Positions 11,038 to 54,146 of a stretch of 64,000 nucleotides of DNA are shown here, in pieces. The notes beneath the pieces are model-generated. The model made no database searches, was not told where the DNA came from, and worked only from the letters and a program-made list of their open reading frames with translations. The number at the start of each line of letters is the position of its first letter. Positions within the stretch are counted from its first letter, which is position 1. The stretch is taken from contig JANYDA010000009.1 of NCBI GenBank assembly GCA_025360005.1, positions 62,001-126,000 on the forward strand, in the 5' to 3' direction. The DNA is from Fibrobacteria bacterium. GTDB lineage: Bacteria > Fibrobacterota > Fibrobacteria > UBA11236. The position numbers were made by a program, and so were the translations under genes.

Positions 11038-13079
11038 CCAAAAGGAATCCCCAATCCCTGCCGCTGGAGGCGTCCGCATTGGTGGGCATGGCGCAGATGG
11101 AAGTCCATCCCGGCGAGCCCGCCCGCAACGGCGCGCGCATGCTGGAGATGATCGCGGAGGCGCGCGGCAAGGGTATCTCCCTGCTGGCCTTCCCGGAGAT
11201 GTGCCTTCCCGGTTACCTGCTGGGGGACATGTGGGAGCGCCCCGCTTTCCTGCGGGAATGCGAAACCTGGGCGGACCGTATCATCGCCGTTACGGGGGAA
11301 CCCGGCGCGCCCGTTACGGTGGTGTTCGGCACCGTGATCGCGGACTGGGACGCAGCGGGCGAAGACGGCCGGGTGCGCAAATACAACGGTTATATCCTGG
11401 CCCAGGGTGGCCGCGCCCTGACGCATCCCGGCCTGGGCAAGCCCTACGGCGTCAAGACCCTGCTGCCCAATTACCGCGAGTTCGAGGAACCGCGCCATTT
11501 CCACGATAACCGGAAATTGGCCCTGGAGCTGGGCCGGCCCCTGGAATCCCTGCTGGAACCCTTCGCCGTCAACCTGGGCGGGCGCGCCTGCCGCGTGGGC
11601 GTGATACTTTGCGAGGACGCCTGGGAGGACGATTATGCCCAGAAGCCCCTGGAAATCCTGGGCGGCAAGCGGTGCGATTTCCTCCTCAATCTCAGTTGCT
11701 CGCCTTTCACGCAAGGCAAGAACGGCAAACGCAATCGCGTCTTCTCGCAAAAGGTGGCGCGCCTGGGGGCGCCCCTCTTCTATGTCAATTGCGTAGGCCT
11801 GCAGAACAACGGCAAGACCCTGTATACCTTCGATGGGCGAAGCACCGCTTACCGCGCCGACGGTTCCGTGCGGGCCGAGATGGAAGCCTATGCCCAGGCC
11901 ATACTCGCCCTGCCGCTGGAATGGCGCGGCGGCGCGGCCGATATCGGCGCCGGGGAAACCCGATCGGAGGATGGGGCCGGGACCGCCGACGCGGCCGGCG
12001 AAAACGGGACGCCGAATGCCGGCACCGAGAACACCGGGAAGGGAGCATCCCGGGTCCGCATCGCGGAAATCCATCAGGCCCTGAAATACGGAGCGCAAGC
12101 TTTCCTGGCGGCCATCGGGCAGGACCGCGTTGTGATCGGCGTATCGGGTGGGATAGATAGCGCGGTGGCGGCGGCCCTGTACCGGGAAATCCTTCCGCCC
12201 CGGAACCTTTTGCTGGTGAACATGCCCAGCCGCTTCAACAGCCCAACCACGCGCAACCTGGCCCAGGAACTGGCCGCCAACCTGGGATGCCTGTATACGG
12301 AAATCGGCATCGAGGAAAGCATGGCGGTGACAAAGGCGCAATTGGACGGCCTGGAAATCACATCGCCGGACGGCTCCCACTTCGCCGCCGTCTCCCTGGC
12401 GGGCTTCGTGATGGAAAACGTGCAGGCGCGGGATCGTTCCAGCCGCATCCTGGCCGCGCTGGCGGCTTCTTTCGCCGGCGTCTTTACCTGCAACGCCAAC
12501 AAGGCGGAACTCACCGTGGGCTATAGCACCCTGTACGGGGATTTGGGGGGCTACCTGATCCTCCTGGGCGATCTATGGAAAAGCGAAGTCTATGCGTTGG
12601 GCCGCCATCTTAACGAGGAAGTGTTCCGGAGGGAAGTCATCCCGGAAGGGGCCTTCACCATCGTTCCCAGCGCCGAACTCAGCGAAAGCCAGGCCGTGGA
12701 CGAAGGCAAGGGCGATCCTCTCATCTATCCTTACCATGATCGCCTGTTCTTCTCCTGGGTGCAGCGCTGGAACCGCGCCACGCCGGAAGAGGCGTTGGCA
12801 TGGTACGCGTCCGGCACCCTCAATGCGGAACTGGGACTGGAAAAGGCGGACGCCTACCATCTCTTCCCCAATGCCGCCGCGTTCATACGCGATCTGGAGC
12901 GCTGGTGGAACCTTTATAATGGCATCGCCGTGGCCAAACGGGTGCAGGCCCCGCCCATCCTGGCGGTCAGTTCGCGCGCGTTCGGATTCGATCACCGGGA
13001 GGCGTTGGGGCGGCCTTTCTATTCCTCCCGTTACCTGCGGTTGCGCCAGGAGCTGTTGGCCAAATCCGGCCATGCCTGA
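11034..13079 (+). CDS. nadE: glutamine-dependent NAD+ synthase
   Basis: The product is 681 aa from ATG 11034 (ATGA overlap with the thioesterase stop); the frame is open further upstream to 10836 but only inside the previous gene. The N-terminal carbon-nitrogen hydrolase (glutaminase) domain shows its Glu-Lys-Cys triad: Glu in LLAFPEMCLPGY, Lys in GVKTLLPNYREF, Cys in VGVILCEDAWEDD. The C-terminal synthetase has the PP-loop GVSGGIDSAVAAAL and the deamido-NAD region TCNANKAELTVGYSTLYGD. It converts deamido-NAD plus ATP and glutamine to NAD+. An Ala/Gly/Thr/Glu-rich linker of ~40 residues (around DIGAGETRSEDGAGTADAAG) joins the two domains and looks like a lineage-specific insertion. Confidence 0.96.
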   Translation: MTKRNPQSLPLEASALVGMAQMEVHPGEPARNGARMLEMIAEARGKGISLLAFPEMCLPGYLLGDMWERPAFLRECETWADRIIAVTGEPGAPVTVVFGTVIADWDAAGEDGRVRKYNGYILAQGGRALTHPGLGKPYGVKTLLPNYREFEEPRHFHDNRKLALELGRPLESLLEPFAVNLGGRACRVGVILCEDAWEDDYAQKPLEILGGKRCDFLLNLSCSPFTQGKNGKRNRVFSQKVARLGAPLFYVNCVGLQNNGKTLYTFDGRSTAYRADGSVRAEMEAYAQAILALPLEWRGGAADIGAGETRSEDGAGTADAAGENGTPNAGTENTGKGASRVRIAEIHQALKYGAQAFLAAIGQDRVVIGVSGGIDSAVAAALYREILPPRNLLLVNMPSRFNSPTTRNLAQELAANLGCLYTEIGIEESMAVTKAQLDGLEITSPDGSHFAAVSLAGFVMENVQARDRSSRILAALAASFAGVFTCNANKAELTVGYSTLYGDLGGYLILLGDLWKSEVYALGRHLNEEVFRREVIPEGAFTIVPSAELSESQAVDEGKGDPLIYPYHDRLFFSWVQRWNRATPEEALAWYASGTLNAELGLEKADAYHLFPNAAAFIRDLERWWNLYNGIAVAKRVQAPPILAVSSRAFGFDHREALGRPFYSSRYLRLRQELLAKSGHA

Positions 13080-13189
13080 GCCGCCCAAGGGCGCAGGGAA
13101 ACCCCGGAGCCACCGTTACCGGCCGGTTAACGGGCGCGGATGCGAAGTCACTGGCCAACCGGAAAGGGAAACATTATAATGGACCAGCC

Positions 13190-14140
13190 ATGCTGCATAT
13201 CCTGAACGGCGATGCCACCCTTTCCCTGCTGAAGCAAGGTCCGATCAAAGGCCGCTTCCTGGTCTGGAGGGACATGCTGATGGAAGGCCCGGTTTCGGCC
13301 GTGGGCAAGGACAAGCGCGCCAAGGGCGGAAAGAGCGCCTGGTCCGCATGGCCGGCCATCGCGCGGGCCGGCGGCATCGATTGGGATGCGCGCGCCGCGT
13401 TCCTGCGCGATCAATACGGCATCAAACCCGCGAAATTCCTGGCCGGCATGAAAGCCTTTTTCACCGCTTACGAAAAAGCGGCCAAAGGCAAGGACGAAGT
13501 GGTGTTCTGGTTCGAGGAGGATTTCTTCTGCCAAATCCATCTCGTCTACCTGCTCGCGCATTTGCCCAAATCCCTGCGCCGCAAGGGCCGGGTCTCCATC
13601 ATCTGCCCGGAGAAGCCTTTGGGGGTGCGCCTGCCCGCCGCTTTCCCCAAATTGCAGGCTGGCCGGCTGCCCGTGGAACCGGCCTTGCTCACGCTTTCCG
13701 CCAGGGTATGGAAGGCCTATTCGCTTTCATCCTCCCAAGGCTGGTCCGCGTTCCTGAAATGGGCCCGATCCGGCAAGGGTTTCGAGCGCTGGCCCCTGCT
13801 TAAGGGAGGCTTGCGTTCCCACCTGGGCCGGTTGCCGGCCGCCAACGGAAAACCCAATGCGGTGGCCGCGGCTTTCCTGCAAGCGCTGGCGGCGGGACCA
13901 TTGGGCTTTCCCCAATTCGCGCGCAAGGCCTGGGCGGCTCCCATGATCCGTCCCTTGGGACTCGGTGATTTGCAGGTGGCGCGCTATGCGCTCGATCTGG
14001 CCGCCGCGGCGGAACCCTTGCTCGCCATCGAGGGCCCGGGCAGCGCTCCCGCCAAGGGCAAGCCCATCATGCCCGCGGAGTGGAAGCTCCATCTTACCGC
14101 AGCCGGTAAGGCGGCTCTGAGCCGGCTCCGGGTAACCTAG
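13190..14140 (+). CDS. DUF1835 domain protein
   Basis: This 316-aa protein begins with the DUF1835 signature (MLHILNGDATLSLLKQGPIKGRFLVWRDMLMEGPV). The central FWFEEDFFCQIHLVYLLAHL matches the family's conserved segment. DUF1835 proteins are cytoplasmic and of unknown function. The C-terminal part (FLQALAAGPLGFPQFARKAWAAPMIRPLGLGDLQVARYALDLA) resembles the DUF3658-like helical tail seen in some members; this is a weak assignment. The start at 13190 is the only ATG giving the full domain. Its stop is 3 bp from the stop of the convergent livF, leaving no room for a conventional terminator between them. Confidence 0.8.
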   Translation: MLHILNGDATLSLLKQGPIKGRFLVWRDMLMEGPVSAVGKDKRAKGGKSAWSAWPAIARAGGIDWDARAAFLRDQYGIKPAKFLAGMKAFFTAYEKAAKGKDEVVFWFEEDFFCQIHLVYLLAHLPKSLRRKGRVSIICPEKPLGVRLPAAFPKLQAGRLPVEPALLTLSARVWKAYSLSSSQGWSAFLKWARSGKGFERWPLLKGGLRSHLGRLPAANGKPNAVAAAFLQALAAGPLGFPQFARKAWAAPMIRPLGLGDLQVARYALDLAAAAEPLLAIEGPGSAPAKGKPIMPAEWKLHLTAAGKAALSRLRVT

Positions 14141-14143
14141 CAG

Positions 14144-14848
14144 TTACTCCCCAAGATAGGCTTCCTGTACGCGCGGATCCTTCGCCAGATCCGCCGAATC
14201 GCCCTGCATGATAATGCGCCCGGTCTCCAGCACATAGGCTTTCCGCGATCGTTTCAGCGCCAGGTTGGCGTTCTGCTCCACCAGCAAAACGGTGGCGCCT
14301 TCCCGGTTGATGCGATCGACGGCGTCGAAAATCGCGTGCACCATCAATGGCGCCAGGCCCAGGGACGGTTCATCCAAAAGCAGCAAGCGCGGGTGCGCCA
14401 TCAGCGCACGGCCTATCGCCAGCATCTGCTGTTCCCCGCCGCTCAGCGTCCCGGCCATCTGCGCCATGCGCTCCTTGAGGCGCGGGAACACTTCGTAGAC
14501 GTGATCGATGTCCAGCCGCAATCGCTTGCCGTCCCGCTGCAGGTATCCGCCCAGCTCCAGGTTTTCCAGCACGGTCAGGTTGGCGAAGACGGCGCGGCCC
14601 TCCGGTACCAAGGCGATGCCCATGGCGGCGATGCGGTGGGTGGGGATCTTGTTGAGCTTCCTGCCCTCGAACAGGATCTCTCCCGCATGCGGTTGGCACA
14701 GGCCCATGATGCTCCGCAAGGCGGTCGATTTGCCCGCCCCGTTGGCGCCGATCAAGGTGGCCACCGATCCCTTCTCCACCTCCAGGCTCACGTCCGTGAG
14801 CGCCTGGATTGAACCGTAACGGGTGGAAACGTGGCTTAGCGTTAACAA
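14144..14848 (-). CDS. livF: branched-chain amino acid ABC transporter ATPase LivF
   Basis: This ATP-binding subunit of the Liv (HAAT) transporter powers uptake of Leu/Ile/Val or related amino acids. Walker A is GANGAGKSTALRSIMG, the signature LSGGEQQMLAIGRAL, Walker B LLLLDEPSLGLAPL and the H-loop-like region TVLLVEQNANLAL, the LivF-specific form with Gln-Asn instead of His. The proposed start is TTG 14848, giving LLTLSHVSTRYG, with GAGG 8 nt upstream. The frame stays open to 14917, but those extra codons translate the intergenic repeat (MQFSICNFQFA) and are unlikely to be real protein. Last gene of livKHMGF. Confidence 0.93.
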   Translation of the reverse strand: MLTLSHVSTRYGSIQALTDVSLEVEKGSVATLIGANGAGKSTALRSIMGLCQPHAGEILFEGRKLNKIPTHRIAAMGIALVPEGRAVFANLTVLENLELGGYLQRDGKRLRLDIDHVYEVFPRLKERMAQMAGTLSGGEQQMLAIGRALMAHPRLLLLDEPSLGLAPLMVHAIFDAVDRINREGATVLLVEQNANLALKRSRKAYVLETGRIIMQGDSADLAKDPRVQEAYLGE

Positions 14849-14883
14849 CGGAAAAGCCTCGCTGCGGTCCGGAGACTTTTTCT

Positions 14884-15024
14884 TTGCAAATTGAAAATTG
14901 CAAATTGAAAATTGCAAATCGGAAGACCGGGACTTTGCCCCATCGTTTCCGAAAACCCGCTGAAGCCTAAAAGGCGATCAAAAAGCCGGGTTTCAATTTT
15001 CAATTTGCAATTTTCAATTTGCAT
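14884..15024. repeat. AT-rich inverted-repeat element, copy 1 (livG/livF gap)
   Basis: Two arms made of 14-nt units (GCAAATTGAAAATT) flank a unique centre. Positions 14885-14914 and 14994-15023 are perfect 30-bp reverse complements around a 79-nt loop. The loop itself can form a short hairpin (AAACCCG near 14953 with CGGGTTT near 14987). It occupies almost the whole livG-livF gap and is far more AT-rich than its surroundings. In the liv transcript it would form a long stem-loop. No target-site duplication is visible. Related copies are at 16860-16981, 43666-43700 and 54011-54146. Confidence 0.9.
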
Positions 15025-15030
15025 AATGCT

Positions 15031-15792
15031 TCACTCTCTCCCCAAATACGCTTCAATCACTTTCGCATCCTTGCGTATCTCCGCCGGCGCCCCCATGGCT
15101 ATGCCTTCCCCGTGCACGACCACCTGGATACGCTCGCATACGCCCATGACCACCTTCATGTTGTGCTCCACCAGGAGGATGGACACCTTGAACTCGTCGC
15201 GGATGCGGCGGATCAGGCGCATCAGGTCCGCGGCCTCCTGCGGGTTCATGCCGGCGGCGGGTTCGTCCAGGAGCAGTAGGCGGGGCTTGGTCGCCAAGGC
15301 GCGGGCAATCTCCAGACGGCGTTGGGACCCGTAAGGGAGGGAAGACGCAGCCTCGTCGGCCAGCTTGTCCAACTGGAACAGGGCCAACAGGCGCATGGCC
15401 TCCTCGCGATGGGCCGTTTCTTCCCGATGAAAGGCGGGTCCGCGGAATACCGAGGCCAGCACGCCTTGCGAGGATCGCATGTGGGCGGAGACCAGGACGT
15501 TTTCCAATACGGACATGGAGGTGAAGAGGCGGATGTTCTGGAAGGTGCGCGCGATCCCGGAAGCGGCGATCACATGCGGGGCCTTGCCATGGATGGGTTT
15601 GCCGTCGAAGAGGATGGCGCCGGAAGTGGGCGAGTAGACGCCCGTGATCATGTTGAACACCGTGGTCTTGCCCGCGCCGTTGGGGCCGATTAGCCCGAAC
15701 AGTTCGCCTTCCTCGATGGCGAAACAAAGGTCCTTCACCGCCAGCAACCCGCCGAAGCGGATGGTGGCGTTTTGCAATCGCAACAACGCCAT
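15031..15792 (-). CDS. livG: branched-chain amino acid ABC transporter ATPase LivG
   Basis: This 253-aa ATPase is the LivG partner of LivF. Walker A is GPNGAGKTTVFNMITG. The LivG-specific region IARTFQNIRLFTSMSVLENVLV carries the Q-loop. The signature position reads LPYGSQRRLEIARAL, as is normal for LivG, Walker B is LLLLDEPAAGMNPQE and the H-loop SILLVEHNMKVVM. The ATG at 15792 overlaps the livM stop (ATGA), so LivM and LivG are translationally coupled. Its own stop lies 7 bp from the inverted-repeat element that separates it from livF. The length is normal for the family. Confidence 0.95.
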   Translation of the reverse strand: MALLRLQNATIRFGGLLAVKDLCFAIEEGELFGLIGPNGAGKTTVFNMITGVYSPTSGAILFDGKPIHGKAPHVIAASGIARTFQNIRLFTSMSVLENVLVSAHMRSSQGVLASVFRGPAFHREETAHREEAMRLLALFQLDKLADEAASSLPYGSQRRLEIARALATKPRLLLLDEPAAGMNPQEAADLMRLIRRIRDEFKVSILLVEHNMKVVMGVCERIQVVVHGEGIAMGAPAEIRKDAKVIEAYLGRE

Positions 15793-16841
15793 CAGCCGCC
15801 GTTCCCGCCGTCCGCCGCCGGAGCAGTAACTGGTACGTTACCCTGGGCGCTTCTCCGCGCCGCCATGCGCGCTCCCAGGCGCTTGAGCACGGAAGCCTGC
15901 CCCAATATGCCCTGCGGCCGATAAATCATGATAAGAATGAGCGCCAGGCTGTAGATGATCATGCGGTAGCTCTCGAAACCGCGGAAGGCTTCCGGCAGCA
16001 CCGTCAGCAGCACGGCGCCCAGTACCGCGCCTTCGATGCTCCCCAGTCCCCCGATGGCTATCATGATGATGATCTCGAAGGATTTCACGAAGGTGAAGGA
16101 GTTGGTGTGCAGGTACATGGTGTAATGCCCGAACAGGCAACCCGCCATGCCCGCAAACATGGAACTGATGACAAAAGCCAGCACCTTGTGGCGCGTCACG
16201 TCGATACCCATCGCCTGGGCCGCGATCTCGTTCTCGCGGATAGCGATGAAGGCGCGGCCATAGCTGGACCGCAAGAGGTTGCCCACCGTGGCGATCACGG
16301 CTGCGACCAGCAGGTAGACCCAGAAGAAATTGCTCAGCTTGGGGATGCCGGAAAAACCGCGCGCGCCTCCCACCGCGTCGATATTGAGGATGAGCACGCG
16401 GATGATTTCCCCGAAGCCGAGCGTGACGATGGCCAGATAGTCGCCGCGCAGCCGCAAAGAAGGGATGCCCACCAGCAACCCGGCCAGGGCCGTAGCCAAA
16501 GCCGCCGCCGCCAAAGCCAGCAGAAGCACCGCCGCATCCTGCCCCGCCAAAGGCAGGAAACCCACCAGCCCGCGGATGGCCGGCCCGGCATAATAGCTCA
16601 CCGAAGCGGCCATGTACGCGCCCACCGCGAAGAAACCCGCATGCCCGATGGAGAATTGCCCCGCGATGCCGTTGGTCAGATTGAGGCTCACCGCCAGCAC
16701 GATGTTAATGCCCGCCAGGATCAGGATCTGGTAATAGTAGGGCCCCTGCCGGATAGGCCCGTCCAAAAGGAGGGTCGTGACGCCCCATTGCAGCAGGCCG
16801 AGGAGGGAGAGGGTTGAAAGGACGAAAAAAATCCGTTTCAT
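15792..16841 (-). CDS. livM: branched-chain amino acid ABC transporter permease LivM
   Basis: The 349-aa integral inner-membrane permease has about nine or ten hydrophobic segments. Family signatures include INIVLAVSLNLTNGIAGQFSIGHAGFFAVGAYMAA, LRLRGDYLAIVTLGFGEIIRVL (the EAA-like coupling region) and IGGLGSIEGAVLGAVLLTVLPE. It forms the translocation channel with LivH. The C-terminal tail (RLGARMAARRSAQGNVPVTAPAADGGNGG) is longer and more low-complexity than usual. The stop overlaps livG (ATGA). The start at 16841 has no strong Shine-Dalgarno. The gap to livH contains a decayed copy of the inverted-repeat element. Confidence 0.95.
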   Translation of the reverse strand: MKRIFFVLSTLSLLGLLQWGVTTLLLDGPIRQGPYYYQILILAGINIVLAVSLNLTNGIAGQFSIGHAGFFAVGAYMAASVSYYAGPAIRGLVGFLPLAGQDAAVLLLALAAAALATALAGLLVGIPSLRLRGDYLAIVTLGFGEIIRVLILNIDAVGGARGFSGIPKLSNFFWVYLLVAAVIATVGNLLRSSYGRAFIAIRENEIAAQAMGIDVTRHKVLAFVISSMFAGMAGCLFGHYTMYLHTNSFTFVKSFEIIIMIAIGGLGSIEGAVLGAVLLTVLPEAFRGFESYRMIIYSLALILIMIYRPQGILGQASVLKRLGARMAARRSAQGNVPVTAPAADGGNGG

Positions 16842-16859
16842 CGTGCGCGGCGGTCGATG

Positions 16860-16981
16860 GATTGCAAATTGAAAAATGGATTTGGCTCAGTGTCCGGGCC
16901 CACTTCCATTTTTGGAAAGAACGTGGATGCTGTCCCCGTCTTCCAACTTGCAATTTTCACTTTGCAGTTTTCAATTTGCAA
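16860..16981. repeat. AT-rich inverted-repeat element, copy 2, degenerate (livH/livM gap)
   Basis: The left arm at 16862-16880 (TTGCAAATTGAAAAATGG) and the right arm at 16944-16981 (CAACTTGCAATTTTCAC, then TTTGCAGTTTTCAATTTGCAA) are built from the same units as copy 1. Only the outer 14 bp still pair perfectly, because the right arm has about three units and the left just over one. The centre (about 16881-16943) differs from that of copy 1. It fills nearly all of the livH-livM gap. Confidence 0.8.
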
Positions 16982-16999
16982 AATTCTTCCCTTTCCCCA

Positions 17000-17899
17000 T
17001 CACACCTTCTCCACCGCTCCCTTGCCCAACAGCCCCGCGGGCTTGAACAGGAGGATCACGATCAGGATCAGGAACGCGATGGCGTCGCGATAGGTGGAGC
17101 TGCCGTAGCCGGCCACCATCACTTCCGCAAGCCCCAGGATCAGGCCGCCCAGCACGGCCCCGAAGATGTTGCCGATGCCGCCCAGCACCGCGGCCACGAA
17201 GGCTTTGAGGCCCGTCATTACGCCCATCAGCGGATCTATCCCGGGGATGTTGATGGAGACCAGGATGCCGCCCGCCGCGGCCAGGGCGGATCCCAGCGCG
17301 AAGGTGAGCGCGATGATGCGATCGGTGTCGATGCCCATCAGCTTGGCCGCGTCCATATTGAAGGAAACGGCGCGCATGGCCTTGCCGGTGCGGCTGCGGT
17401 AGATGAAAAGGTTCAGGAGTATCATCAAGGTTACTGCGGTCAGGAGTACGATCACCTGCTGGTTGGTCAGCATCAGCCCGCCCAGCTTGATGTGGCTTTC
17501 CGGGATCAACTGGGGGAAGAACTTGGGGTTGGCTCCGAATATCAATTGCCCCGCGTTCTCGATCAGCAGCGACAGGCCGATGGCGATGATGAGCATGGTC
17601 AGCCGGGAGGCCCGGCGCACGGGCCGGTAGGCGAACCTTTCCATCAGCAGGCCGCAGATGGCGCAGCCCAGCATGGAAAGGAACATCACCAGGGCGGCGT
17701 CCAGCAGATGGTAGGGGGTGCGGCCTTGCAAAATGCGCGAGAGGTAGAAACCGAAATAGGCCCCCAGCATGTAGACGTCCCCGTGGGCGAAATTGATCAG
17801 GCGCAGCACGCCGTAAACCATGGTGTACCCAAGGGCCACCAAAGCGTAGATGCTCCCCAGGGAAATCCCGTTGATCAATTGCTGAAGGAAACTCTCCAT
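17000..17899 (-). CDS. livH: branched-chain amino acid ABC transporter permease LivH
   Basis: This 299-aa inner-membrane permease pairs with LivM. Signatures are the opening LQQLINGISLGSIYALVALGYTMVYGVLRLINFAHGDVYMLGAYFG, then MRAVSFNMDAAKLMGIDTDRIIALTFALGSALAAAGGIL and the C-terminal GLKAFVAAVLGGIGNIFGAVLGGLILGLAE, which is the ATPase-coupling loop. About eight transmembrane helices are predicted by eye. It starts 30 bp downstream of livK on the same strand. The length is typical. Confidence 0.95.
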   Translation of the reverse strand: MESFLQQLINGISLGSIYALVALGYTMVYGVLRLINFAHGDVYMLGAYFGFYLSRILQGRTPYHLLDAALVMFLSMLGCAICGLLMERFAYRPVRRASRLTMLIIAIGLSLLIENAGQLIFGANPKFFPQLIPESHIKLGGLMLTNQQVIVLLTAVTLMILLNLFIYRSRTGKAMRAVSFNMDAAKLMGIDTDRIIALTFALGSALAAAGGILVSINIPGIDPLMGVMTGLKAFVAAVLGGIGNIFGAVLGGLILGLAEVMVAGYGSSTYRDAIAFLILIVILLFKPAGLLGKGAVEKV

Positions 17900-17928
17900 G
17901 CCGAACGTCGCCGCCTATCCCCCGCGCC

Positions 17929-19125
17929 TCAGGGCGAGACGGATTCCTTGAACACGTTGCGGCCGTTGCCTTTTTCGTCCACCTTGACTTCCAGCACTAC
18001 CGCCGGTTTCACCGCATCCCGATGCTCGTCCAGGGAAATGCTCCCGGTAACGCCCATGAAACCTTTGGTCTGGGCCAAGGCCAGGCGTACGCTGTCGGGC
18101 TGGGCGCTATTGGCGCGCTTCATCGCGTCCGCAAGGATCAGGGCGGCGTCGTAGCCCAAGGCCGCCATGGCGTCCGGGATGGTATCGCCGGTCTTGCGGT
18201 AGCGTTCCGTGAAATCGGCCACGAACTTGCGCAGGATGGGGCTGGGATCGTCCACGGAATAATGGTTGGAGTAGTAGCAGCCGTTGAGGGCGGTGCCGCC
18301 TATCTTCCACAGGTCGGAGGAATCCCAGCCATCCCCGCCCAAGAGCGTCACGGTGATGCCGAGCTTGCGGGCCTGCAGGGCGATAAGGCCCACTTCCGTA
18401 TAATAGCCGGGTATGAATATTCCGTCCGGGTGCTTGGCCTTGATGGCGGTGAGCTGGGCCGTGAAATCCTTGTCGCCCTGGCTGTAGCTCACGTCCGTCA
18501 CGATGGCGCCGCCCATTTTCCCGAAGTTCTCCACGAAGAAATTGGCGAGGCCCACCGAATAGTCGCTCTTGATGTCGCGCAGCACGGCCACGTTCTTGAG
18601 CTTGAGGGTGTTGGTCGCGAACTTGGCCATCACCAGGCCCTGGAACGGATCGATGAAGCAGACGCGGAAGATATAGTCGCCTACCTGGGTCACCTTGGGA
18701 TTGGTGGACCCGGGGCTGATCATGGGGATGCGGCTGGCTTGCGCCACCGGGGCCGCGGCCAGGCTGTTGGAGGAAGCGATTTCGCCGAGCAGGGCCACCA
18801 CGCGATCCTTGCTGATCAATTTGGTCGCCACCGTCTGGGCTTCTTCCGGCTTGCCCTGATCGTCTTCGACGATCACTTTCAGTTTGCGGCCCAATACGCC
18901 GCCGCTGGCGTTGATGGCGTCGATGGCCATCTCGATGCCCTTTTGCGCGCTTTGCCCGAAGGTGGCGGTGGCGCCCGTCAGCGATCCGTAATGCCCGATG
19001 AGAATATCGTTGGAGGATTGGTTTGCGGAATCTTTCTTATTGCAAGCGATGAGGCCGGAGAGGAAAGCCGTCGCCAGGAGGACGGATACCACGTTGCGGC
19101 GCTTCTTCTGGTTCGGAAAAAACAT
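17929..19125 (-). CDS. livK: branched-chain amino acid ABC transporter substrate-binding lipoprotein
   Basis: The product is 398 aa from ATG 19125, chosen because an AAAGG-like RBS precedes it and the signal peptide starts immediately after (RRNVVSVLLATAFLSGLIAC). The frame extends to 19242 but without signal logic. The lipobox LIAC makes this a lipoprotein, so it is membrane-tethered rather than free in the periplasm. The mature part is a type I periplasmic-binding fold: ILIGHYGSLTGATATFGQSAQKGIEMAIDAINASGG, LLGEIASSNSLAAAPVAQASRIPMISPGSTNPK. It is the first gene of livKHMGF and delivers ligand to LivHM. Specificity within the amide/amino-acid class cannot be fixed from sequence. Confidence 0.93.
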   Translation of the reverse strand: MFFPNQKKRRNVVSVLLATAFLSGLIACNKKDSANQSSNDILIGHYGSLTGATATFGQSAQKGIEMAIDAINASGGVLGRKLKVIVEDDQGKPEEAQTVATKLISKDRVVALLGEIASSNSLAAAPVAQASRIPMISPGSTNPKVTQVGDYIFRVCFIDPFQGLVMAKFATNTLKLKNVAVLRDIKSDYSVGLANFFVENFGKMGGAIVTDVSYSQGDKDFTAQLTAIKAKHPDGIFIPGYYTEVGLIALQARKLGITVTLLGGDGWDSSDLWKIGGTALNGCYYSNHYSVDDPSPILRKFVADFTERYRKTGDTIPDAMAALGYDAALILADAMKRANSAQPDSVRLALAQTKGFMGVTGSISLDEHRDAVKPAVVLEVKVDEKGNGRNVFKESVSP

Positions 19126-23136: not shown

Positions 23137-23195
23137 AATATACCCCGCTCCCGGTCTAATTGCAAAGTAAAAATAGATAATAGATTACAAAAATA
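23137..23195 (-). promoter_or_regulatory. promoter region of lipoprotein A with shared 13-mer
   Basis: Reading the minus strand, TTGCAA (23165-23160), a 17-bp spacer and TATATT (23142-23137) form a plausible sigma-70 promoter about 45 nt before the RBS. Just upstream, the 13-mer GATTACAAAAATA on the plus strand (23183-23195) is identical to the one at 40497-40509. On the minus strand it is preceded by TTGAGG, so it may mark a second promoter. The surrounding ~150 bp (to about 23290) are strongly AT-rich, and a shorter match GATTACAAAAT lies at 23271-23281. Confidence 0.5.
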
Positions 23196-40445: not shown

Positions 40446-40747
40446 GACCACAGTATAGTCCCATCCTCATGAAATGGAAAGTAATTTCATATAAATGATT
40501 ACAAAAATAATGTCAATTTCGATTTAAAATCATAAAAATGCTTTAAAAAAGCATAAAGTCGATTTTATTTTGATTTCGATATTTAAATAAAATAACAAAT
40601 AAAGATTTCATTTTGGGTGGGTGTGGGTGCTTGCAGAGGGGGAACAGGCCGCCCAACCGGGCTTCCTATGGATTCATGGGACGCCGGTCGTATTGTGTAT
40701 ATAACGGGCCCGGAAGGAGCGCGGGGATGCGCCCAAACCGGCCGGCG
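40446..40747. other. AT-rich intergenic island upstream of the TIGR02147 operon
   Basis: About 300 bp without a gene, between the mutS stop and the regulator start. Positions ~40480-40612 are strikingly AT-rich in a GC-rich genome and include the promoter at 40488-40516. A perfect 7-bp inverted repeat ATGCTTT/AAAGCAT (40538-40554) is followed on the minus strand by TTTTTA, so it could be a weak terminator for mutS or a protein-binding site. Positions 40613-40747 return to normal composition and show nothing recognisable. Confidence 0.6.
40488..40516 (-). promoter_or_regulatory. sigma-70 promoter with candidate operator in the spacer
   Basis: On the minus strand TTGACA (40516-40511), a 17-bp spacer and TATATG (40493-40488) give a good -35 and an acceptable -10, about 45-50 nt before the regulator ATG. 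The 13-mer TATTTTTGTAATC fills most of the spacer (GATTACAAAAATA on the plus strand, 40497-40509) and is identical to the one at 23183-23195 upstream of the paralogous lipoprotein. A spacer position suits a repressor site. Confidence 0.65.
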
Positions 40748-43627: not shown

Positions 43628-43665
43628 GGGGAGGGTTACCTGAGTCGGTACAGAGGGAAGATTTT

Positions 43666-43700
43666 CGCAAATTGAAAATTGCAAATTGAAAATCGCAAAA
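43666..43700. repeat. solo arm of the AT-rich repeat element (scpB/mutS gap)
   Basis: Positions 43667-43700 read GCAAATTGAAAATT twice with small variations, then CGCAAAA: one arm of the element seen at 14884-15024. No complementary arm is found within 150 bp on either side. It fills part of the short gap between scpB and mutS. It also creates an in-frame ATG-like extension that would add MQFSIC to MutS. Confidence 0.8.
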
Positions 43701-43715
43701 ATCCTCTACTGCCTC

Positions 43716-54010: not shown

Positions 54011-54146
54011 GATTGAAAATTGCAATATGCAAATTGAAAATTGGAAACCGGGAAGCCTCGCTCACATCCGGTTTTCCCAATAGCGCAAATGGATCCGGCG
54101 TTGCCTTTTCTTCCAATTCGCATATTGCAATTTTCAATTTGCAATC
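54011..54146. repeat. AT-rich inverted-repeat element, copy 4 (glmM/glmS gap)
   Basis: Arms at 54011-54045 and 54111-54146 flank a ~65-nt centre. ATTGAAAATTGCAATATGC (54012-54030) pairs perfectly with GCATATTGCAATTTTCAAT (54120-54138), a 19-bp match, and the inner TTGGAA/TTCCAA also pairs. The arms differ by one 7-nt unit. The variant ATATGC occurs in both arms here but in no other copy. The centre has its own hairpin (AAACCGG / CCGGTTT). It almost fills the glmM-glmS gap. Confidence 0.9.

Follow-up and report, generated by a model that had tools for sequence, protein, structure and literature searches.

An excess of heptameric repeats is seen in many bacteria, for which slippage of the polymerase at about 7 nt has been put forward (PMC4692102). 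Heptameric G-rich intergenic repeats have been described in Xanthomonas, with the unit (GGGAATC)n, and in Nostoc, with the unit GGGGA(T/C)T (PMC4692102). Each Xanthomonas genome carries about 70 inverted, convergently oriented pairs of these heptads, which lie a mean of 28 nt behind stop codons, mostly between co-directional and seldom between divergent genes (PMC4692102). Between two Xanthomonas species, 83% of the heptads are conserved in position; most are transcribed, and the G4-forming heptads coincide with transcript starts or ends more often than control repeats do (PMC4692102). ERIC and Correia (NEMIS) elements are likewise transcribed with their neighbours, and affect mRNA stability or cutting by RNase III (PMC2229807).

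The elements described here belong to an uncultured Fibrobacterota bacterium (G000; 4.98 Mb in 65 contigs, 98% complete), which groups with the uncultured 'Fibrobacteres bacterium' MAGs RYN_348 (G002) and RYN_349 (G004) at 86–94% protein identity over four to five fragments. Five congeneric genomes, G001 to G005, form the comparison set. An earlier note on a 64-kb stretch of G000 (the window) had reported a pair of exact inverted 30-nt arms between livG-like and livF-like genes and related elements at three further sites. The focal arms are indeed perfect over 30 nt and all four sites are present (Table 1), one of the three related sites holding a solo arm without a centre. Complementarity of the focal arms is still 92% over 38 nt (14885-14922 / 14986-15023), and the stem that the earlier note attributed to them has strong support from a predicted fold of -68.1 kcal/mol (z -8.75). 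About 8 nt separate the livG-like stop codon from the focal arm, and the TTG start (14848) and GAGG (14857-14860) of the livF-like gene both lie beyond the element. The window also contains an AT-rich 38-nt repeat pair (23158-23195 / 40472-40509; 76% alike, ending GATTACAAAAATA) that is unrelated to the heptads.

Table 1. Heptad elements of the window and the genes on either side of the focal element.
Feature	Position	Strand	Basis
Focal element, livG-livF junction, two heptad arms and 79-nt centre	14884..15024	.	arms, fold, congeneric comparison
A-rich arm, (TTGMAAA)n on the + strand	14885..14914	+	exact reverse complement of 14994-15023
T-rich arm, TTGMAAA on the - strand; 5' arm in the sense (-) transcript	14994..15023	-	
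Focal centre, G+C-richer, two sub-hairpins in the predicted fold, not found in other elements	14915..14993	.	
Second element, between two liv permease genes; TTCTTC (GAAGA-type flank) at 16984-16989	16860..16989	.	
Solo one-arm element without centre, ends GATTTTCGC/GCAAAAATC, scpB-mutS junction	43660..43703	.	
Two-armed element, glmM-glmS junction	54011..54146	.	
livF-like ABC ATPase, downstream of the focal element	14144..14848	-	PF00005
livG-like ABC ATPase, upstream of the focal element	15031..15792	-	PF00005 + PF12399

The elements recur throughout the genome as one family whose placement is strongly biased, as the earlier note had supposed. Within the window, GCAAATTGAAAATT has 15 matches at up to two mismatches, against 0.48 expected and a maximum of 3 in 100 shuffles. 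Across G000 there are 36 exact copies of it and none of the reversed pattern, and the three-unit pattern AATTGMAAATTGMAAATTG gives 210 matches at up to three mismatches against 1 for its reversed control; a stricter arm-pair pattern has no match in the genome contigs. An incomplete census, drawn from a listed subset of the 210 matches and leaving out two copies with another unit, counts at least 32 TTGMAAA-type elements in the 4.98-Mb genome. No Rfam 15 covariance model matches within the window at gathering thresholds, and the exact sequence of the repeat was not found in literature searches. The heptad hairpins are a real and non-random feature, of a kind that is widespread and has received little description; heptameric repeats are frequent in the intergenic DNA of bacteria at large, yet only sparsely described.

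The unit in G000 is the heptad TTG[C/A]AAA, with a period of exactly 7. The 14-nt unit of the earlier note proves to be two heptads, TTGCAAA and TTGAAAA: intergenic tandem arrays number 41, 42 and 44 at lag 7 in G000, G003 and G005, recur at the harmonic lag 14, and number 0–2 at each other lag from 4 to 15, the regions having been picked for holding elements so that these counts show an exact period and not a genome-wide density. Genic arrays at lag 7 number 1, 0 and 0 in the same three genomes. A typical element starts behind a stop codon with a purine-rich flank (often GAAGA), a few heptads and a centre of about 8–101 nt, and continues with a few complementary heptads, a pyrimidine-rich flank (often TCTTC) and a leader that runs to the next start codon. 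GAAGA-type flanks are found in 8/31, 2/17 and 4/18 post-stop windows of the three families, against 1/148, 1/50 and 1/66 in element-free gaps. In every two-armed copy that was examined, from three species, the arms come in one and the same order: unit strand, then complement. Some elements of Phycisphaerae ES-bin-92 (L146 and L156) are reversed, with the T-rich arm first and the A-rich arm second, an arrangement not seen in the Fibrobacterota genus. Centres are not conserved, in agreement with the earlier note, and no 9-mer is common to three or more of them in G000; in G005 there is partial sharing of sequence between copies. Solo copies (e.g. 43660-43703) consist of a single arm bearing both end sequences and likely arise by internal deletion, because a G002 junction (L201, orthologous to L066:6087) reads GAAGATTTTTGCAAAAATTC, which looks like both element ends joined with arms and centre absent. 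A second heptad family of the AAAGTGC/AAAATGC type occurs in similar placement at two G000 loci (L072:6481-6619 and L062:14831-14959). At a G003 locus (L246:3072-3511), opposite AGGGTNN arms stand about 370 bp apart across an entire convergent gap, around a centre far larger than usual.

The absence of convergent and divergent placements reported by the earlier note holds for the window. Across G000, 31 of the 32 elements are co-directional and one is convergent, with none divergent, and in the relatives roughly one element in four is flanked by a convergent gene pair (17 co-directional, 5 convergent and 1 divergent in G003; 18, 7 and 1 in G005; sites sampled in contig order from pattern matches, not at random). 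Divergent gaps are avoided everywhere. Pooled over the three species, the elements divide into 66 co-directional, 13 convergent and 2 divergent (n=81), against 214, 36 and 60 background gaps; compared with element-free gaps of at least 10 nt, elements are under-represented in divergent gaps (p 5e-5) but not in convergent ones. At co-directional junctions of the three species, the element starts a median of 17 nt past the stop codon and leaves 36 nt up to the next start, as placed by a simple codon-usage caller whose starts are possibly off by some codons. The distance to the stop is the shorter of the two (p 4e-7), and the element starts within 60 nt of the stop in 62/65 co-directional junctions. 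Once the element is subtracted, the junction has a median length of 52–64 nt across species (52 nt in G000); what remains reaches 150 nt in 0/30, 0/17 and 5/18 junctions of G000, G003 and G005, and 65–71% of co-directional intergenic bases fall in gaps of at least 150 nt. In the window, the elements separate conserved gene pairs, namely those of the livM/livG/livF-type transporter (BPD_transp_2, ABC_tran), scpB/mutS and glmM/glmS, and further G000 elements split what we take to be pheS/pheT, E2/E3 of a dehydrogenase and parE/parC. We infer that the elements are co-transcribed within operons, since the roughly 35 nt between the element and the next start are too short to house a promoter; the stem is thus probably transcribed, as the earlier note had proposed.

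Orthologous junctions were located in all five congeneric genomes with one protein query of fragments from the genes upstream of elements. The focal livG–livF junction is empty in 5/5 congeneric genomes. The junction of the second element, 158 nt long in G000, corresponds to a TGATG overlap in G002, to 11 nt in G003 and to an AAAAGTY hairpin in G001. Many junctions carry hairpins of like architecture built from other units, namely AGGGTNN in G003, AAGGT[C/T]T in G005, AAAAGT[T/C] or AGGGGTT in G001 and GGGCGTC in G002. The scpB–mutS junction holds AGGGTNN in G003, AAGGTYT in G005 and AAAAGTY in G001, and glmM–glmS holds AAGGTYT in G005 and AAAAGTY in G001. The junction recognised as pheS–pheT is filled in 5/6 species by five different units, and is a handy test case for function and mechanism. 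AAGGTYT has 361 matches in G005 and 0 in the five other genomes, and AGGGTWM has 250 in G003 and 0–1 elsewhere in the genus. TTGMAAA matches number 71, 22, 9 and 8 in G000, G001, G002 and G004 and 0 in G003 and G005; this unit is therefore common to part of the genus.

The species' own unit fills 7/16 orthologous junctions in G003 and 7/16 in G005 (14/32), six of them common to both, against 0/15 and 1/16 (1/31) matched element-free co-directional control junctions (pooled Fisher p 1.2e-4); the sole control match depends on a gene with 45% identity. The occupancy expected from sampled densities is about 1–1.5%. Part of the elements are inherited: the one at L062:4923 is recognisable in G004 and partly in G002, and the centre of L069 is retained in G001 and G002. 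The junctions outlast the sequence of the unit, the sites being conserved while the units switch between congeneric species, so that a process which homogenises or targets the unit must exist. Conservation of the repeat sequence is a poor guide to such elements, and conservation of the site a good one. The earlier note had missed this switching at conserved junctions, together with the 7-nt unit and the anchoring to stop codons.

Covariation of the two arms, which the earlier note had expected, is rejected: the two arms of an element resemble each other no more closely than arms taken from different elements do (82.5 vs 81.8%, 83.8 vs 83.6% and 86.4 vs 87.9% in the three species; permutation p 0.84, 0.87 and 1.0, the sets including convergent copies). 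On the sense strand of co-directional elements, mismatches show no excess of G:U over A:C (56 vs 60), G000 leaning towards G:U (32 vs 18) and G003 the opposite way (7 vs 18); this test and the coupling test have limited power, as arms of any two elements match at about 82–88%. No selection for base pairing as such is detected, and since there is neither arm coupling nor a G:U excess, the pairing potential stems from a homogeneous pool of units. Of the two outcomes that the earlier note named as counting against its reading, the lack of arm covariation is thus observed, whereas a small copy number without orientation bias is not.

Beyond the genus, exact copies of the 24-mer TTGCAAATTGAAAATTGMAAATTG are present in public genomes, on 74 stretches with hosts in Planctomycetota, Hydrogenedentes, Nitrospirota, Verrucomicrobiota, Bacteroidota, Clostridia, Patescibacteria and others. 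The few matches inside genes (e.g. L098) may be coding coincidences. By rough gene calls, the loci with callable neighbours comprise 29 co-directional, 7 convergent and 9 divergent cases, at a median of 14 nt past the stop. The same 24-mer is found in only 4 of 2.9 million viral contigs (IMG/VR, L280-L283). A locus of a MAG labelled Candidatus Kuenenia (L104:391-503) is a mosaic, with a TTGMAAA left arm and a right arm of the GTGCAAA type, as if one arm had been swapped alone.

We favour, with belief and doubt about evenly balanced, the reading that stop-anchored inverted heptad repeats are co-transcribed intercistronic hairpins that protect, cut or partly terminate the mRNA behind the upstream gene. 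In its favour stand the exact period, the stop-proximal placement that avoids divergent gaps, the short remaining junctions, the conserved gene pairs, the nearly private units, the re-use of junctions, the strong predicted fold and the parallels in Xanthomonas. The element would be transcribed within the operon mRNA, and its RNA would form a stem of about 30 bp right after the terminating ribosome. This stem would act as an intercistronic element for end-protection, processing or partial termination, leaving the mRNA level of the upstream cistron less tied to that of the downstream cistron. At convergent sites the element, being a palindrome, could serve both genes. Some copying process would keep the unit homogeneous and replace it as a genome-wide family, while selection or a targeting preference would retain the junctions. 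Against a role at mRNA ends, several orthologous junctions lack an element, the focal one in all five relatives, and the element is therefore dispensable there. The lack of arm coupling and of a G:U excess also weighs against it, as does the lack of a U-tract and of terminator calls at the elements in 13000-19000.

Less probable, though a serious candidate, is a MITE-like selfish or neutral family, in which some transposase would move the elements, inserts in genes and promoters would be purged, and the survivors at junctions would have no host function. Hotspots would on this account recur since the same junctions tolerate insertion in every species, a supposition we hold just as tentatively. 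The elements do share with MITEs their multi-copy, largely species-private families, terminal inverted repeats and empty beside filled sites (e.g. the TGATG overlap in G002 against its filled counterpart in G000), and both the GAAGA-type flank common to three families and the lack of arm coupling would fit. However, random insertion followed by purging predicts long gaps, while the remaining junctions are short and stop-proximal, and the G000 copies lack the homologous interior that MITE copies have in common. No target-sequence duplication is readable, the flanks being too diverged between species. The Y1/RAYT transposase (PF01797) is absent from G000, G002, G003, G004 and G005, and present only in G001, where Y1 (IS200/RAYT-like) genes lie at L237-L239. 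The empty sites would allow the mobility suggested in the earlier note, but no RAYT accompanies the elements in five of the six genomes and no terminal sequence is common to the species beyond the GAAGA-rich flank. A REPIN/RAYT origin is unsupported, both by this distribution and by units that are non-palindromic heptads without a GTAG/GGAG head, and so is a reverse transcriptase as mover, with one only, in G005, across the six genomes. Candidate copying routes are an ectopic one, from element to element, or an unrecognised transposase acting on GAAGA-flanked arms.

A narrower form of the mRNA-hairpin reading, which we consider rather doubtful, makes each element a bidirectional partial terminator or pause site. 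On both strands the purine-rich arm would be transcribed first and the pyrimidine-rich arm second, placing a hairpin over a weak RNA:DNA hybrid. The invariant arm order and the occurrence at convergent junctions in the relatives would suit such a site, as would terminator-like centres (e.g. GGAGCCCA..TGGGCTCTTTC in L069, retained in G001 and G002) and the ending of Xanthomonas transcripts at heptad repeats (PMC4692102). Yet the elements lie inside operons whose downstream genes require the transcript, and G000 has a single convergent site. No canonical terminators are called at the elements in 13000-19000, and no U-tract follows the stem.

It is decidedly unlikely that a dedicated system recognises the junction past the stop codon and adds or replaces both arms from a species-specific source of heptads, re-spelling the hairpins genome-wide as lineages diverge. 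Pure DNA slippage, in which the replication polymerase would favour heptads, arrays would grow anywhere untranslated and the hairpin look would come from both strands growing, is very improbable and largely refuted: it draws on the slippage proposed for heptameric repeats in many bacteria (PMC4692102) and on the period-7 arrays of many other units that TTGCAAATTGAAAATTGMAAATTG loci in other phyla also carry (30 at lag 7 vs 0–15 at lags 4–13), but under it the arrays should be direct repeats only, or random in orientation, and their units should be unrelated from one site to another, and it leaves unexplained the single unit family at scattered sites of each genome, the invariant inverted order, the stop anchoring and the re-use of junctions.

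Among described intergenic repeats, REPINs and REPs share with the present elements two inverted repeats around a spacer, an extragenic position and species-specific sequence classes; unlike them, REPs combine a palindrome with a GTAG-type tetranucleotide and depend on a RAYT, whereas 5/6 genomes here are without a Y1 transposase (PMC3116915, PMC3686654). ERIC and Correia (NEMIS) elements are similarly palindromic, intergenic and about 100–150 bp long, but their sequence is conserved over its full length with TIR and TSD, whereas here only the unit is common and the centre is free (PMC2229807). The TAACTGA repeats of marine Beggiatoaceae, also found in Cyanobacteria and Bacteroidetes, are dispersed intergenic heptamers too, although they are direct repeats just before start codons with no predicted hairpin, in contrast to the inverted, stop-proximal elements described here (PMC4679880). 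With the Xanthomonas and Nostoc repeats, the Fibrobacterota elements have in common an exact 7-nt tandem unit with degenerate positions and a dispersed intergenic distribution, and with those of Xanthomonas also inverted convergent pairs close to stop codons. A G-quadruplex role has been proposed for the Xanthomonas and Nostoc repeats, unlike which TTGMAAA has no G-runs; we do not regard G-quadruplex potential as a defining property of the class. The Fibrobacterota copies are, unlike those of Xanthomonas, nearly all inverted pairs or solos resembling their remnants, and while both Xanthomonas species use one unit, here units switch at the same junction between congeneric species. The Fibrobacterota elements are therefore best read as a variant of the Xanthomonas-type heptameric intergenic inverted repeats. 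Such repeats as a class are already described; the new part is conserved sites with switching units.
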